This document shows positions 36,504 through 44,646 of a DNA stretch of 64,000 nt, piece after piece. This stretch comes from Agrobacterium larrymoorei (lineage in GTDB: Bacteria > Pseudomonadota > Alphaproteobacteria > Rhizobiales > Rhizobiaceae): NCBI RefSeq assembly GCF_005145045.1, contig NZ_CP039692.1:1381501-1445500 (forward strand), in the 5' to 3' direction. A program made the position numbers and the translations under genes. Under the pieces are notes generated by a model that made no database searches, was not told the origin of the DNA, and saw nothing but the letters and a program-made list of their open reading frames with translations. Every line of letters starts with the position of its first letter. Positions within the stretch are counted from its first letter, which is position 1.

Positions 36504-37934
36504 TCACACGAGCAGATATTGCGACTGGTGCTGAACGCTTGCCGTTGCTGGATCTTCCAGCTCATAGGCACGAATGTAATCGATCTTCATTTCCGAGCCA
36601 TTTGGCAGGCCGTTTGCAGGCGTCCCTGCAATGCCGCCAACAGCCAGGTTGACGAGCATATACATGGAATCATGCATATCGGCAGGCGTGTCGATCTGCG
36701 CCACCGCCACATCGTCAAAATACCAGGTGATGTGGTTTTCATCCCAGAGAAGGCCGTAATTGTGGAAACCTTCAGTGCTGGCAACGCTGACATTGTTGAT
36801 CGACGACGTCTGCTGGCCGGATGCATTGGAGTGCGCCGAAAGGATCAGCGTGTTCGGGTTCTGCCCACGCATCTCGATGACGTCCAGCTCCGGTGGCCAT
36901 CTGCCATCGGTCGGTAGCAACCAGAAGGCAGGCCAAACGCCTTGATCCGAAGGCATATCTGCCCTGATCTCGAAATAACCATAGGTCTGCGAGAAGGATG
37001 GGTGGGTGGTCAACATGCCAGACGTGTAGTCATAGCCGTTTACCGCGTCAGAAATCGCATCCGGCGTCGGCGCTGCCTTGATCGTCAATATACCGTCCTG
37101 AATCGAGAAGGGATTGACGGACGACGTGGGCTGATAGGCCGGGTTTATGTACCACTGCTTTTCGGAGTTGGTGTGCAAGCTGCCGCCTTGCTCTCCGGCC
37201 CACCAGAATTTCGGCTCCCAGGTGCCGCTCGTTCCGTTGCTGAGCGAAAGGCTGTTGAAGTCGTCTGAGAAGGTGGAGGTCAGTTGCGACCGATCCAGGC
37301 TGAGCTTGAACTGCTCCGGCTTGAGATCGTTGGCCGTCGTATTTGCCAGAACGACGCTTTCACCATTGTCGAAATTGAGCCAGAGATCATTGCCTTTCTG
37401 GCTGGATGCACTGAGAAGATGGTCGAAGGAGGTGACGCCATAGCCATCGAGGCGGATGAAGTCGTCGGAACCGAAATCGGTAATCAGATCCGTGCCGTTG
37501 CCCTTGGAGAAGACGAAAGTATCGGCCCCGCCGCCGCCGATCAGCACATCGTTGCCCGCGCCGCCATCTATGGTCTGGCTGCCGGAGCCGCCGGTTATGA
37601 TGTTGTCGAGATCATTGCCGAAAGCGTGGCGGCCATCGCCGGTTACTCTCAGATTCTCGAAATTATCCGGCAGGGTGTAGCTCATCCACGTATCTATCGT
37701 GTCGATGCCTTCGCCGGGCGCCTCGACAGCGCGGTTGATGGTCGAATACAGGTAGTAGATGTCATCGCCCGTGCCGCCATGCATCGTCACGTTGACGCTG
37801 CCATCGCCCCACATGGAATCATTGCCGCCGGTGCCGTAAAGATCAGGGCCGGAGCCCGTTGCCGAGAAAAAGCCGGTTGAAGTATCGCTATAATAAAGTG
37901 GTTTGCCCACCGCATTCGTGATCGATCGTGCCAT
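36504..37934 (-). CDS. Secreted RTX-type glycanase, GH16 family
   Basis: A 476-residue protein. The N-terminal ~190 residues carry calcium-binding RTX nonapeptides (DLYGTGGNDSMWGDG, GGSGSQTIDGGAGNDVLIGG). The C-terminal part (~225-460) is a GH16 glycoside hydrolase with the catalytic motif ELDVIEM, both glutamates present. The layout matches rhizobial ExsH/PlyA-like enzymes that leave the cell through a type I secretion system and trim exopolysaccharides such as succinoglycan or beta-glucan. There is no N-terminal signal peptide, as expected for type I export. The start has a good AGGAGG site. No ABC/MFP secretion genes are in the window. Confidence 0.9.
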   Translation of the reverse strand: MARSITNAVGKPLYYSDTSTGFFSATGSGPDLYGTGGNDSMWGDGSVNVTMHGGTGDDIYYLYSTINRAVEAPGEGIDTIDTWMSYTLPDNFENLRVTGDGRHAFGNDLDNIITGGSGSQTIDGGAGNDVLIGGGGADTFVFSKGNGTDLITDFGSDDFIRLDGYGVTSFDHLLSASSQKGNDLWLNFDNGESVVLANTTANDLKPEQFKLSLDRSQLTSTFSDDFNSLSLSNGTSGTWEPKFWWAGEQGGSLHTNSEKQWYINPAYQPTSSVNPFSIQDGILTIKAAPTPDAISDAVNGYDYTSGMLTTHPSFSQTYGYFEIRADMPSDQGVWPAFWLLPTDGRWPPELDVIEMRGQNPNTLILSAHSNASGQQTSSINNVSVASTEGFHNYGLLWDENHITWYFDDVAVAQIDTPADMHDSMYMLVNLAVGGIAGTPANGLPNGSEMKIDYIRAYELEDPATASVQHQSQYLLV

Positions 37935-38922: not shown

Positions 38923-39936
38923 GCGTTTATCCTCCCGTAACGTCAGGCTTTTTAGCTTCATTACAGGCAAATGAGGCTCTGGCAAGGGACGTTGCAGGCG
39001 CAAACCCGCAAATGTACTGTCTTCAACATAATATTGGAGTAGAAGTATTTTCCGAACTCGCGCGTTTACGCCATGCTCATCAGCATACAGCCTCTAGCTC
39101 CGTCACGCATCTGGCGGTCGAGGCCGCACCTAAACGCCTATGTTCAGTCGCGCGCCAGCCTTGAGGTCGGGCGCCGGCGCAACTCATGAGATGCGCTAAA
39201 CGGTTTATGCCGCTGTATAGTTGGACTAGATGGAGCCTGCGCTGCTACGTTGCATGGAGGCAATGAAATTATATGATTGATATTAAGAACATAATATATC
39301 TATACTGATGAAATAACATTTTTTACTGTGTGGTTAAAGATTTCCGTTGGGGCGACGCCCAAAAAAAGTCTGAAGAAATAGGAGTTTTTTTACGTTGAAA
39401 AACAAATCTTCATTTTGTACATCCTGTGGATGAAATTCACGCTCTGTTTTAGTGATCTGGAAAAACACCCGGGTATCAAAGAGATTTCGTCTCTTTAGTA
39501 CTGTTTTTTTTAAATCGGGCTTTTGGTTACAGGTCGAATCATTCCAATATAGTGGTTGTAATAGGACTTCGAATTAACCAAATTTTAAAAGGTTATAGAG
39601 AATAGTCCAGTCGCTGAGGTGGGAAGTGGGCAATGCACTCGCAGCTAATGATAAGCTGCATATGTGCCTGTTCATGACAATCTCAAATTATTTGGCGTAA
39701 AAGGTCGGAGCCCGTAAGGGCTCTGCGTGCATGATGCCTTCCAGTACGCCGGCTCTCGAAAGCCATGTTTTCCAAGGATCGTTATTGCCCTGACGGGCGC
39801 CGGGTCGACTTTGCCGTCGGTTTGGTGCGCTGGTTTGCGAACGTTTGATCGTTCGCGCAGCTATGCGTGGTTTGAAGCCATTCATGTTGCCCGGCGCAGA
39901 TAACATTTGTCATTTGCCAAACGGGGGCACGCGTCC
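38923..39936. other. 1-kb gene-free region with AT-rich core and hairpins
   Basis: No convincing gene is seen; a 72-codon minus-strand frame at 39688-39906 has no recognisable features. About 39230-39640 is strikingly AT-rich, with repeated TATA-like stretches near 39270-39310. Hairpins: 39478-39496 (7-bp stem followed by T8), 39708-39723 (6-bp stem, GUAA tetraloop) and 39837-39856 (7-bp stem). It probably holds the promoter and a structured leader for the downstream giant repeat gene. Confidence 0.55.
39708..39856 (+). promoter_or_regulatory. Putative structured 5' leader of the giant repeat gene
   Basis: Two perfect stem-loops, GAGCCC-GTAA-GGGCTC (39708-39723) and GCGAACG-TTTGAT-CGTTCGC (39837-39856), lie ~80-230 bp before the ATG at 39937. 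The first is closed by a GNRA tetraloop. They could be leader-RNA elements controlling expression. No known riboswitch class was recognised. Confidence 0.35.
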
Positions 39937-42900
39937 ATGACGTCAATTGTAGCTAATCTTTCGATCAAGCAGATAAGCAATCTTTCCACCACTACGATGA
40001 AGTCACTCACATCGGCTGACATCGCTGCGCTCAGCAATGCGCAGATTGGTGCTCTTAGTTCTACGCAGATCGGCGCGCTGAACACCGACATAATGTCGTC
40101 CATCGGCAGCGACAAGATCAGCGCAATCTCCGCCAAGGCAATTGTAGGCCTAACGGTCGATCAGTTGACTGCGATTGGTTCTGCTCAGGTTGTTGGCCTG
40201 ACGACGACACAAGTTGCGGCAATGTACGCAAGCCAGATCGGCGCTCTCAATGATGAGGGCTTGGAGGCTTTGAGCTCGGCGCAAGTAGCCGTCATGAAAT
40301 CCGATCAGGTCGCTACGCTGTCTGCTGATGAGCTGAAGAAATTCACGACGGATGAGATTGCAGCGATCAACACAAAGGCTCTTGCCGGTCTCCAGACTTC
40401 TGAAATCGCTTCGCTGGAAACCTCTGTTCTGCAGGCCTTCTCCAGCACACAGCTGGGTGCGTTCAACTCCTTGCAGCTCGGCGCTCTCAAGACCGAACAG
40501 CTTGCCGTACTGAAAACCGAACAGCTTGCAGGTCTTTCCGCCAAGCAGATCGTCTCGCTTGACTCCGGTGCTGTCAGCGGCCTGACTTCGGATCAGGTTT
40601 CAAAGCTCTCTGCGGTACAGGTTGCTGCACTGACGTCTAACCAGATCGACAGCATCAGCGATGACGCCATTGCTGGTTTCACAAGCGATCAGGCCAAGGT
40701 CCTGACCTCTGCTCAGGTTGCCAAGCTGTCTGCAGATGACCTGAAAAAGTTCGCTGCGGACGAGATTGCTGCCATTAACACCAAGGCACTCGCCGGTCTT
40801 CAGAGTGACGTACTCGGTGCACTGGAAACTGCATCCCTGCAGGCTTTCTCCAGCGCGCAGCTTGGTGCGATGACTTCGTCTCAGCTCGGCGCTCTCAAGA
40901 CCGAACAGCTTGCAGTACTGAAAACAGAACAGCTTGCAGGTCTTACGGCCAAGCAGATCGTCTCGCTCGACACGGGTGCTGTCAGCGGTCTGACTTCGGA
41001 TCAGGTTGCCAAGCTCTCCACAACGCAGGTTGCTGCACTGACCTCCGACCAGCTGGCAAACTTCAGTGGTGATGCGATCACGGCTCTGACGTCCGATCAG
41101 GCCAAGGTTCTGACATCTGCTCAGGTCTCCACCCTGTCCGCAGAAGAACTGAAGACCTTCTCCACGGATGAAATTGCAGCGATCAGCACCAAGGCACTTG
41201 CAGGTCTCCAGACTTCTGAGATTGCCCTGCTGGAAACCGCTGCTCTGCAGGCATTCAGCGGCGCGCAGATTGGCTCTCTGAACACAAATCAGATCGCCTC
41301 GCTCACGACTGAACAGGTCGGCTTGCTTGCGACCGGTCAGGTTGCCGCGCTCACATCCAAGCAGCTCGCTGCTCTGGTGCCTGGAAAGCTCAGCACGCTC
41401 ACCACTGATCAGGTGAACGTTCTGACCAACCAGCAGTTGACGGCATTGAGCACAGCTCAGCTCGCCGCCTTCAGCGCCGATGCGGTCAAGGCTTTGGACT
41501 CCGATCAGATCGCCGTTCTGAGCTCCGGTCAGGTCGCCACGCTCTCTGCTGACGAACTGAAGGACTTCACGGCGGATGAGATTGCAGCGATCAACACCAA
41601 GGCTCTCGCAGGTCTCCAGACTTCTGAGATCGCCTTGCTGGAAACTGCCTCCCTGCAGGCCTTCACCAGCACGCAGCTTGGTGCTCTGAACGCATCTCAG
41701 CTCGGCGCTCTCAAGACCGAACAGCTTGCAGTACTGAAAACAGAACAGCTCGCAGGTCTTTCCGCCAAGCAGATCGTCTCGCTCGACACGGGCGCTGTCA
41801 GCGGTCTGACTTCGGATCAGGTTGCCAAGCTCTCCACGACGCAGGTTGCTGCGCTGACTGCGGACCAAATCAACAGCATTAGCGATGACGCTGTTGCAGG
41901 TTTCACGAGCGATCAGGCCAAGGCCTTGACCTCTGTTCAGGTCGCCAAGCTGTCTGCAGATGATCTGAAAAAGTTTGCTACTGACGAGATTGCTGCCATT
42001 AGCACCAAGGCACTCGCCGGTCTTCAGAGTGACGTACTCGGTGCACTGGAAACTGCATCCCTGCAGGCTTTCTCCAGCGCGCAGCTTGGTGCGATGACTT
42101 CGTCTCAGCTCGGCGCTCTCAAGACCGAACAGCTTGCAGTACTGAAAACAGAACAGCTTGCAGGTCTTACGGCCAAGCAGATCGTCTCGCTCGACACGGG
42201 TGCTGTCAGCGGTCTGACTTCGGATCAGGTTGCCAAGCTCTCCACAACGCAGGTTGCTGCACTGACCTCCGACCAGCTGGCAAACTTCAGTGGTGATGCG
42301 ATCACGGCTCTGACGTCCGATCAGGCCAAGGTTCTGACATCTGCTCAGGTCTCCACCCTGTCCGCAGAAGAACTGAAGACCTTCTCCACGGATGAAATTG
42401 CAGCGATCAGCACCAAGGCACTTGCAGGTCTCCAGACTTCTGAGATTGCCCTGCTGGAAACCGCTGCTCTGCAGGCATTCAGCGGCGCGCAGATTGGCTC
42501 TCTGAACACAAATCAGATCGCCTCGCTCACGACTGAACAGGTCGGCTTGCTTGCGACCGGTCAGGTTGCCGCGCTCACATCCAAGCAGCTCGCTGCTCTG
42601 GTGCCTGGAAAGCTCAGCACGCTCACCACTGATCAGGTGAACGTTCTGACCAACCAGCAGTTGACGGCATTGAGCACAGCTCAGCTCGCCGCCTTCAGCG
42701 CCGATGCGGTCAAGGCTTTGGACTCCGATCAGATCGCCGTTCTGAGCTCCGGTCAGGTCGCCACGCTCTCTGCTGACGAACTGAAGGACTTCACGGCGGA
42801 TGAGATTGCAGCGATCAACACCAAGGCTCTCGCAGGTCTCCAGACTTCTGAGATTGCCTTGCTGGAAACCGCTGCCCTGCAGGCCTTCACCAGCACGCAG

Positions 42901-44589
42901 CTCGGCGCTCTAAACGCATCTCAGCTCGGCGCTCTCAAGACCGAACAGCTTGCAGTACTGAAAACAGAACAGCTCGCAGGTCTTACGGCCAAGCAGATCG
43001 TCTCGCTCGACACGGGCGCTGTCAGCGGTCTGACTTCGGATCAGGTTGCCAAGCTCTCCACGGCGCAGATCAATGCACTGACCTCCGACCAGCTGGCAGG
43101 CTTCAATGGTGATGCGATCAAGGCTCTGACGTCCGATCAGGCCAAGGTTCTGACATCGGCTCAGGTTTCCACCCTGTCCGCAGAAGAACTGAAGACCTTC
43201 TCCACGGATGAGATTGCAGCGATCAGCACCAAGGCACTTGCAGGTCTCCAGACTTCTGAGATTGCCCTGCTGGAAACCGCTGCTCTGCAGGCCTTCTCCG
43301 GCAGTCAGATCGGCTCTCTGAATACAAGTCAGATCGCCTCGCTCACGACTGAACAGGTCGGCTTGCTCTCAACCGATCAGGTTGCTGCCCTCACATCCAA
43401 GCAGCTCGCTGCTCTGGTGCCTGGAAAGCTCAGCACGCTCACCACTGATCAGGTGAACGTTCTGACCAACCAGCAGTTGACGGCATTGAGCACAGCTCAG
43501 CTCGCCGCCTTCAGCGCCGATGCGGTCAAGGCTTTGGACTCCGATCAGATCGCCGTTCTGAGCTCCGGTCAGGTCGCCACGCTCTCTGCTGACGAACTGA
43601 AGGACTTCACGGCGGATGAGATTGCAGCGATCAACACCAAGGCTCTCGCAGGTCTCCAGACTTCTGAGATCGCCTTGCTGGAAACTGCCTCCCTGCAGGC
43701 CTTCACCAGCACGCAGCTTGGTGCTCTGAACGCATCTCAGCTCGGCGCTCTCAAGACCGAACAGCTTGCAGTACTGAAAACAGAACAGCTTGCAGGTCTT
43801 ACGGCCAAGCAGATCGTCTCTCTCGACACGGGCGCTGTCAGCGGTCTGACTTCGGATCAGGTTGCAAAGCTCTCCACGGTGCAAGTTAACGCATTGACCT
43901 CCGACCAGCTGGCAGGCTTCAATGGTGATGCGATCAAGGGTCTGACGTCCGATCAGGTCAAGGTTCTGACATCGGCTCAGGTTTCCACCCTGTCCGCAGA
44001 AGAACTGAACACCTTCACGACGGATGAGATCGCAGCGATCAGCACTAAGGCTCTTTCGGGTCTCACGACGAGTGCGCTTGCTGACCTCGACGCTACCAAC
44101 CTGAAGTCCTTGAGCACCCAGCAGATCACCGCGCTTAATACCGCCCAAATACAGGGATTGACCGGTGAAAAGGTTGGTGAACTGACGACAGCGCAAATCT
44201 CTGCTCTGACTTCGAAGCAGATTTCGTTGTTGACAACGGAAGCGGTGACCGGTCTGACGACCGATCAGATTGCATCGATGACCACGCTTCTGGGCGCTTT
44301 CTCAACCGATCAGATTGTCGCTATGGACGCCAATCAGATTGAAGCTATCTCGACGGATGGAGCCGCTAGCCTGACGTCTAGCCAGATATCGGCAATGAAT
44401 GCCGAAGATATCTCGAAGTTCACGACCGATGAACTTGGTAAGCTGACGTTGAAGGCGGTTAAGGGCCTGACAACGGACAACGTTGCCAGCTTGACATCGT
44501 CGCAGGCGAGCAGCTTCACTCAGGCACAACTCCAGGCAATGGATCAGGCGCAGGTCGAGGCTATCCAGAAGCAGTACAGCTCCAACTAA
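39937..44589 (+). CDS. Giant octapeptide-repeat protein, unknown family
   Basis: A 1550-residue protein made almost wholly of ~190 octads with consensus A-L-T-S-x-Q-V/I/L-A. Leucine at position 2, Ser/Thr at 3-4, glutamine at 6 and an aliphatic residue at 7 are strongly kept. Seventeen octads make a 136-residue module; homologous points in successive modules (LKxFxxDEIAAI) fall exactly 408 bp apart ten times, from 40333 to 44005. The first ~132 and last ~58 residues are degenerate versions. There is no cysteine or tryptophan, no Sec signal, no RTX motif, no LPXTG and no membrane segment. One octad near the C-terminus is seven residues (MTTLLGA). A solenoid or long fibre is likely. The start is ATG 39937 behind GGGGG; a TTG at 39907 is an alternative. 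Function unknown. Confidence 0.9.
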   Translation: MTSIVANLSIKQISNLSTTTMKSLTSADIAALSNAQIGALSSTQIGALNTDIMSSIGSDKISAISAKAIVGLTVDQLTAIGSAQVVGLTTTQVAAMYASQIGALNDEGLEALSSAQVAVMKSDQVATLSADELKKFTTDEIAAINTKALAGLQTSEIASLETSVLQAFSSTQLGAFNSLQLGALKTEQLAVLKTEQLAGLSAKQIVSLDSGAVSGLTSDQVSKLSAVQVAALTSNQIDSISDDAIAGFTSDQAKVLTSAQVAKLSADDLKKFAADEIAAINTKALAGLQSDVLGALETASLQAFSSAQLGAMTSSQLGALKTEQLAVLKTEQLAGLTAKQIVSLDTGAVSGLTSDQVAKLSTTQVAALTSDQLANFSGDAITALTSDQAKVLTSAQVSTLSAEELKTFSTDEIAAISTKALAGLQTSEIALLETAALQAFSGAQIGSLNTNQIASLTTEQVGLLATGQVAALTSKQLAALVPGKLSTLTTDQVNVLTNQQLTALSTAQLAAFSADAVKALDSDQIAVLSSGQVATLSADELKDFTADEIAAINTKALAGLQTSEIALLETASLQAFTSTQLGALNASQLGALKTEQLAVLKTEQLAGLSAKQIVSLDTGAVSGLTSDQVAKLSTTQVAALTADQINSISDDAVAGFTSDQAKALTSVQVAKLSADDLKKFATDEIAAISTKALAGLQSDVLGALETASLQAFSSAQLGAMTSSQLGALKTEQLAVLKTEQLAGLTAKQIVSLDTGAVSGLTSDQVAKLSTTQVAALTSDQLANFSGDAITALTSDQAKVLTSAQVSTLSAEELKTFSTDEIAAISTKALAGLQTSEIALLETAALQAFSGAQIGSLNTNQIASLTTEQVGLLATGQVAALTSKQLAALVPGKLSTLTTDQVNVLTNQQLTALSTAQLAAFSADAVKALDSDQIAVLSSGQVATLSADELKDFTADEIAAINTKALAGLQTSEIALLETAALQAFTSTQLGALNASQLGALKTEQLAVLKTEQLAGLTAKQIVSLDTGAVSGLTSDQVAKLSTAQINALTSDQLAGFNGDAIKALTSDQAKVLTSAQVSTLSAEELKTFSTDEIAAISTKALAGLQTSEIALLETAALQAFSGSQIGSLNTSQIASLTTEQVGLLSTDQVAALTSKQLAALVPGKLSTLTTDQVNVLTNQQLTALSTAQLAAFSADAVKALDSDQIAVLSSGQVATLSADELKDFTADEIAAINTKALAGLQTSEIALLETASLQAFTSTQLGALNASQLGALKTEQLAVLKTEQLAGLTAKQIVSLDTGAVSGLTSDQVAKLSTVQVNALTSDQLAGFNGDAIKGLTSDQVKVLTSAQVSTLSAEELNTFTTDEIAAISTKALSGLTTSALADLDATNLKSLSTQQITALNTAQIQGLTGEKVGELTTAQISALTSKQISLLTTEAVTGLTTDQIASMTTLLGAFSTDQIVAMDANQIEAISTDGAASLTSSQISAMNAEDISKFTTDELGKLTLKAVKGLTTDNVASLTSSQASSFTQAQLQAMDQAQVEAIQKQYSSN
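40779..41630 (+). repeat. 852-bp perfect direct repeat, copy 1
   Basis: Identical base for base, as far as I can read, to 42003-42854 at an offset of 1224 bp (three modules). First mismatches are at 40778/42002 and 41631/42855. Confidence 0.9.
42003..42854 (+). repeat. 852-bp perfect direct repeat, copy 2
   Basis: Second copy of the 1224-bp-spaced duplication inside the octad-repeat gene. Identity over 852 bp shows recent duplication or gene conversion. Confidence 0.9.
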
Positions 44590-44614: not shown

Positions 44615-44646
44615 ACGGCGCCGGAGTAATCCGGCGCCGTTTTTTG
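44615..44646 (+). terminator. Strong terminator after the giant repeat gene
   Basis: 10-bp perfect stem ACGGCGCCGG/CCGGCGCCGT with a 6-base loop, then TTTTTG. It lies 25 bp past the stop. Confidence 0.93.

Follow-up and report, generated by a model that had tools for sequence, protein, structure and literature searches.

A PF20080 octapeptide-repeat protein of Agrobacterium larrymoorei with a predicted alpha-solenoid fold, and the probable partnership of its family with a dedicated GT41 glycosyltransferase

The gene at 39937-44589 (+) of the window (the whole 64,000-nucleotide stretch of DNA analysed here) encodes an octad protein of the Pfam ALTTAQ repeat family (PF20080), which scored 733.2 bits against a curated cut-off of 26.4, with 54 matched stretches. 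Judging from the structure models, the protein is almost certainly an all-repeat alpha-solenoid rod (a ‘helical screw’) with one helix per octad. The PF20080 repeat was already known; what is new is a probable dedicated GT41 partner for one branch of this family. The best explanation of the whole is an exported alpha-solenoid fibre that is O-glycosylated in the cytoplasm by its dedicated GT41, and we regard it as moderately probable. Export of the repeat proteins appears quite likely, and the repeat family is probably the GT41 substrate. That the copy in the window is itself a substrate is slightly favoured, and the balance also tips narrowly towards a type I export route.

The open frame (39907/39937-44589, +) is intact, and encodes 1550 residues from the ATG at 39937. 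This ATG was taken as the start because most of the relatives begin with MTS[IVT], and because the relative at locus L048 carries the same GGGGGCAC..GTCCATGAC stretch before its ATG; a GGGGG at 39923-39927 (+) in this context is the probable ribosome-binding region. Directly 3' of the stop codon is a strong terminator-like hairpin (44615-44640, +) of 11 pairs (9 GC), followed by TTTTTGTTTT; since two terminator-like sites were found against a shuffle mean of 5.4, the hairpin counts by its strength and place only. The differences between the repeat modules are mostly silent, with a pooled dN/dS of 0.31 from 34 of the 36 pairs of nine modules, which are not independent of each other (two pairs with almost no silent change were left out). 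This value indicates that the frame is under selection and very probably translated. Cys, Trp, Arg and His are all absent from the protein, which has a pI of 4.28 and a net charge of -68, and no signal peptide is apparent by eye; the lack of cysteine and tryptophan had already been noted in an earlier, sequence-only reading of this DNA. Two long open frames on the opposite strand, 40600-41868 (-) and 43369-44196 (-), overlap the repeat gene, and probably arise as a by-product of its codon use. The gene for EglC, an RTX-bearing beta-glycanase (36504-37934, -; NCBIfam, 832 bits), is about 2 kb away; from its RTX repeat, EglC is likely a type I substrate.

At a lag of 8 the protein has a self-identity of 0.305, whereas 200 shuffles average 0.101 and reach at most 0.123; for the protein the values are 0.556 at lag 136, 0.641 at lag 272 and 0.667 at lag 408. 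TRF reported a 408-bp period with 9.2 copies (score 3218). When the sequence was laid out by eights, the octad register was continuous over residues 8-1447 (180 octads), and the whole protein has about 190 octads. Residues 8-1367 (39958-44037, +) consist of ten 136-residue modules with 17 octads each and no register slip. A single 7-residue unit, MTTLLGA (residues 1448-1454; 44278-44298, +), shifts the last 12 octads by one. The sequence-only reading had described the octads and their two-level periodicity within 136-residue modules, both of which were confirmed; its strict register is true of the ten modules, whereas the 7-residue unit near the C-terminus had been overlooked. A third level of duplication was also found. 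Residues 280-551 (40774-41589, +) and 688-959 (41998-42813, +), which are modules 2-3 and 5-6 if the count begins at residue 144, are 0.998 and 1.000 identical at the DNA level, and suggest a recent two-module duplication within the array.

The PF20080 match overturns the earlier statements that the protein has no known domain and that no family has been described, and the PDB also holds an octad protein, HeliScrew4 (9zem). A profile match of this kind is what the sequence-only reading had itself named as refuting it, and the idea of a new family is no longer tenable, although PF20080 could hardly be called characterised: the literature search found no paper describing the PF20080/ALTTAQ repeat family, and likewise none for HeliScrew. 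Searches on octapeptide repeats, rhizobial SPINDLY-family enzymes and galactofuranose glycoproteins returned nothing relevant, and the words ‘screw’ and ‘octapeptide’ are absent from PMC12775518. Three other Pfam families, PF15335 (CAAP1), PF18247 and PF24227, were above their cut-offs for the whole protein; no single stretch passed, and these were read as summed composition matches. A precomputed PF15335 match is carried by many PF20080 proteins among the listed homologues too, and may be spreading as a false annotation. The NCBIfam matches were weak and far under cut-off. No match up to E 1 was found in the window protein for the two-partner-secretion domain PF05860, for the N-terminal flagellin domain PF00669 (which has seven matches elsewhere in the same genome) or for the RTX repeat PF00353, the last in line with the absence of an RTX motif noted earlier.

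Structure prediction, suggested as a check in the sequence-only reading, gave two AlphaFold2 models with mean pLDDT of 94.5 and 96.7, both with one short helix per octad and zero strands. Bacterial ice-nucleation proteins are beta-solenoids of 16-residue repeats with AGYGST, and a beta-solenoid with a glutamine ladder had been offered as one of two folds for the octad protein. The two-level periodicity is the one point in its favour; given that neither model contains any strand, this fold is highly improbable, and the proposed likeness to ice-nucleation proteins falls with it. The other fold offered, a stack of short helices, agrees with the models, and the AGYGST motif is missing from the translation as had been stated. 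HeliScrew4 (120 residues), a designed protein judging by its name, has LTPEQIAA-type octads that align octad on octad with the window protein in the same register; however, its position 2 holds Pro, whereas the linked proteins found in nature have Ser/Thr there. No close fold was found with Foldseek and VIA, and 9zem was not among the matches listed (the structures ran to 2026-04-08 and may not include it). The best Foldseek matches were mesothelin chains (E 1e-5). Mesothelin and the armadillo-type proteins form superhelices of short helices, as does the window model. Leucine-rich-repeat matches in the PDB sequence search were judged to reflect common leucine spacing.

A protein search revealed 128 relatives at E<=0.001 among 7994 scored candidates, of which 120 were listed (22-38% identity). 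The candidates scored were those sharing most words, and the rhizobial relatives are missing, so the list of homologues is incomplete. A scan with the window protein across a genome set of 84,980 species yielded 59 pattern matches, none of them confirmed as a relative; this is not evidence of absence. Among the 120 listed homologues, the calpain-type cysteine protease domain PF00648 was found in 20, PF05860 in 19 and the RTX repeat PF00353 in 10, suggesting that the octad repeat often occurs in large, probably exported proteins. The PF20080 members share the same octad. Many of those listed are multidomain exported proteins (with RTX, PF05860, Ig-like or cysteine protease domains), whereas the window protein consists of repeats from end to end.

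The genome (5.26 Mb) contains at least three repeat genes: the window gene on contig C2, and genes for proteins of 735 and 2456 residues, both on contig C1. The 2456-residue gene is found in the order GT41-UGM-repeat-fliF-visN-visR on one strand, where Pfam identifies the first gene as Glyco_transf_41 and the second as UDP-galactopyranose mutase (UGM). The longest ORFs of GT41 and UGM share 31 bp; gaps of 151 and 97 bp follow at the next two junctions. The GT41-UGM-repeat-fliF order recurs at loci L032-L039. Loci of this kind were collected with a GT41 alignment alone from a set with a single genome per species (84,980 species); the best 80 of 255 relatives are from rhizobia, mostly Rhizobiaceae, with one Xanthobacter. 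A repeat gene is present in 73 of these 80 loci, at most 1577 bp from the GT41 gene (median gap 290 bp; 43 of 73 within 500 bp), in the same orientation in 42 and in the opposite one in 31. The repeat genes were called by octad density, and all eight of those checked with Pfam were confirmed (six from among the shortest or sparsest, which were over the PF20080 cut-off, and two full-length). UGM at >60% identity accompanies 58 of the 80 loci. No repeat gene was found in seven (L066, L068, L070, L102, L113, L116 and the short L131), and six of these seven have at least 14.8 kb of sequence. In G034, from another family of the order, GT41 is directly downstream of the repeat gene.

In a class-level control of 190 genomes (own genome included), GT41 was found at E<=1e-40 in 60, whereas the PF20080 repeat was found in only four. 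Outside the own genome, a high-scoring, near-full-length GT41 match was found in G215 only (815 bits; the next best is 457), where the two members of a GT41 pair end 4.0 and 5.9 kb away from the repeat gene. The repeat gene of G080 is hundreds of kb from the nearest GT41, and G181 carries a repeat gene with no GT41 at E<=1e-40. These counts indicate that the linkage is specific to one GT41 branch and is not a property of GT41 in general. The family of G215 (f69) was then used as a second sample, in which 18 of 79 genomes carry the linked GT41 branch at E<=1e-120 and 14 of the 18 GT41 loci have a repeat gene. Three of the loci lacking one (L149, L153 and L160) are at or near a contig edge; L164 is not explained in this way.

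The second family also provides exporter genes. A type I ABC protein and an HlyD adaptor are beside the glycosyltransferases in seven of the 18 loci (L145, L150-L155), and the repeat gene adjoins in six; these all belong to one genus. The L145 adaptor matched TIGR01843 with 292 bits against a cut-off of 209; its ABC protein is best described as HlyB type but reached 606 of 726 bits, under the cut-off. The own genome encodes a PrtD-type ABC protein and an HlyD adaptor, both above cut-off, at an unlinked locus (L171). No type I exporter recurs beside the 80 rhizobial GT41 loci, where one weak match (L065) was found and ordinary ABC genes do occur.

The composition of the octads also varies with the linkage. 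Ser/Thr occupies position 2 in 0.80 of the octads (median 0.83) of the GT41-linked rhizobial proteins, in 0.64 at the f69 loci and in 0.57 in G034, against 0.31 in the G080 protein, which is unlinked, and 0.42 in the 75 of 120 listed homologues that passed a 15% octad filter. Within G215, the linked copy has 0.95 Ser/Thr at this position; whereas the unlinked copy has 0.29, with 0.18 Pro. Some linked f69 copies are exceptions (L157, 0.36; L158, L161 and L163, 0.50-0.61), so the Ser/Thr rule at position 2 is a tendency; L148 had no frame passing the 40% octad filter. The window protein has 0.68 Ser/Thr and 0.02 Pro at position 2. The repeat protein of G215 at L145:12702-18614 has threonine at 501 of 1970 residues (one quarter) and no lysine.

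Both ends of the repeat proteins are conserved. In the window protein, these are the N-terminal end (MTSIVANLSIKQISNLST...; 39937-40056, +), common to relatives at other loci, and the C-terminal end (..QVEAIQKQYSSN; 44548-44586, +), a predicted 13-residue helix (248-260 in the model) and a candidate export signal. The counts were made on 75 repeat ORFs of at least 500 aa from the 80 GT41 loci, with the other 2235 ORFs of the same loci as background. Of the 75 repeat ORFs, 69 carry the N-terminal pattern somewhere in their first 130 residues, as do two of the others; at the very start it is present in 46 repeat ORFs and in none of the others. The C-terminal pattern was found in 70 repeat ORFs and 12 others. 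The patterns were written after these proteins had been seen, and five of the 75 ORFs hold unknown bases; the counts are thus a description and not an independent test. In L098, L101, L114, L124 and L133, a linker rich in Ser, Thr and acidic residues replaces the last repeats, yet the final ..DDVASIISSYLAV-type end stays. The persistence of the last ~13 residues after such a linker is what might be expected of an export signal.

The window gene is an orphan paralogue, on a contig other than that of the GT41 and UGM enzymes and with its own terminator. No GT41, UGM or type I gene was found among its scanned neighbours. Of 25 genomes from the genus, the own genome among them, 19 contain PF20080, as does one of 16 others of the order. 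The N-terminal 156 residues have matches in 27 of 39 genus genomes at E<=1e-25; outside the own genome these are at most 63% identical, and neither of the nearest loci examined, L048 and L049, has a neighbour in common with the window gene. This suggests that the window copy changes fast, with no clear syntenic orthologue at L048 or L049. The GT41 and UGM enzymes of the own genome could serve it in trans. Alternatively, the orphan may be unglycosylated and differ in function from the GT41-linked 2456-residue paralogue, a reading that is compatible with the best explanation at the family level. Its unlinked locus fits this, as do its Ser/Thr pairs at positions 1-2 (0.38 of octads vs 0.63 in GT41-linked rhizobial proteins) and its D/E at position 3 (0.42 vs 0.27). 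However, its position 2 is on the GT41-linked side in both Ser/Thr and Pro, and its two ends are of the common family type; an unglycosylated orphan is conceivable but somewhat doubtful.

A mechanism could be proposed from these data. Each octad, L-[TS]-[TS]-x-[QE]-[ILV]-x-x, would form one short helix, with a cap formed by the Ser/Thr at position 1, a capping box closed by the Gln/Glu at position 4, and a core in which the aliphatic residues of positions 0 and 5 pack, as the pattern suggests. The product would be an acidic, cysteine-free and presumably stiff rod. The GT41 linkage and the octad composition point to glycosylation of the repeat proteins: a dedicated cytoplasmic TPR-GT41, often together with UGM, might O-glycosylate the repeated Ser/Thr residues before export. 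Export would proceed with no signal peptide, most likely through a type I system reading the conserved C-terminal end, and the glycosylated fibre may function outside the cell in adhesion or in the matrix. A surface fibre, among the roles named by the sequence-only reading, is compatible with the neighbours in relatives; the interpretation given there is partly supported.

The most serious challenge to this export route is the flagellar neighbourhood, which is the best reason to doubt it. The repeat proteins might be exported by the type III machinery of the flagellum, or work on the flagellum itself, in which case the GT41 would be a relative of flagellin glycosyltransferases. The GT41-UGM-repeat-fliF order with visN/visR occurs in nine genomes of the genus (L030, L032-L039), where the names fliF, visN and visR are presumed from similarity. 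Flagellar genes are in the examined flanks of 17 of the 80 loci (12, and five in which fliF is cut by the locus end, L059-L063), and L044 has a flagellin gene nearby by Pfam. When the loci are grouped by synteny, however, flagellar genes are seen in the examined flanks of five of 43 contexts and are missing from those of the other 38, a grouping that is over-split since some loci are short. The MTSI start recalls the flagellin start MTSILTN, but the likeness stops after about five residues. A second GT41 adjoins flagellins (L140:16669-18678) and is 39.5% identical over 372 residues to the repeat-linked GT41; the f69 loci have type I genes instead. On balance, a flagellum-linked role is unlikely. 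The second TPR GT41 at L140:16669-18678 is in the same genome as a repeat-linked one, and is probably the flagellin enzyme.

Still less probable is a solenoid scaffold or ruler that never leaves the cell, for which the GT41 linkage would mean regulation by glycosylation. It would accord with the lack of an apparent signal peptide and of an exporter adjoining the window gene. Against it are the export marks among the 120 listed homologues (PF05860 and PF00353), the type I genes adjoining in f69, and the C-terminal end that is kept after a linker. The exported, glycosylated fibre remains the preferred reading, and parts of it have precedents in known systems.

The HMW1 system uses N-linked hexoses and two-partner secretion, and its adhesin has a fold unlike the octad rod; its enzyme HMW1C is presumably a member of the GT41 family. 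A dedicated GT41 gene of this type is alongside the repeat gene in relatives (73 of 80 and 14 of 18 loci) but not beside the window gene, and the PF05860 domain of HMW1-type adhesins has no match in the window protein. HMW1C modifies the HMW1 adhesin of Haemophilus (PMC3983070, PMC2877744, PMC3012730, PMC6318927), and the likeness to the repeat/GT41 pairs is that a glycosyltransferase acts on a large exported adhesin; a related system is cytoplasmic (PMC6318927). FlmG of Caulobacter is a TPR and glycosyltransferase enzyme like the repeat-linked GT41. It binds flagellins via its TPR region, and the modification takes place in the cytoplasm; unlike in the repeat/GT41 pairs, its substrate is flagellin, its sugar is pseudaminic acid and export is by the flagellum (PMC7591256). 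The PrsDE type I system of Rhizobium exports extracellular or surface proteins with no signal peptide (PMC2275737). Two proteins of 179 and 184 kDa that lack RTX repeats are also described there; a motif of ~140 residues recurs in them, and they are encoded beside a transporter pair. The PrsDE substrates are mostly RTX or cadherin-like, and no octapeptide repeat is named there. RTX type I substrates carry PF00353 nonapeptides (GGxGxDxUx), in contrast to the window protein.

A broader, tentative proposal is an alphaproteobacterial glyco-solenoid system, in which TPR-GT41 and furanose or other nucleotide-sugar enzymes might decorate an octad rod at fixed spacing in the cytoplasm, and a type I or flagellar exporter would free the glycan-studded fibre. 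If so, the stacked octads (up to several hundred) would present a regular sugar array with 100 or more sites, and orphan paralogues such as the window gene would share the GT41. PF20080 is catalogued yet undescribed in the literature found, and is a repeat of very large, often exported proteins. With one PF20080 branch tied to one GT41 branch, and a control in which other GT41 genes lack this link, a repeat that had only been catalogued becomes half of a testable enzyme-substrate pair. If the preferred reading is true, the protein would be a naturally occurring rod that offers one potential sugar site for roughly every eight residues. It would likely matter for how rhizobia and agrobacteria attach and form biofilms, and would be the natural equivalent of proteins with one helix per octad, HeliScrew4 among them.

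The GT41-repeat cassettes have some further recurrent members. Relatives of a protein with a Methyltransf_FA domain were found in 20 of the 80 loci, and relatives of a sugar epimerase in nine. The copy at L088:12050-13303, on which the domain (PF12248) was tested, is a 417-residue protein. In two cassettes a gene is split, perhaps by a true break, perhaps through a sequencing error: the UGM gene at L034:5201-6404 is read as two overlapping frames, and the GT41-linked repeat gene at L045:4484-9675 (G003) as overlapping frames of 1398 and 351 residues.
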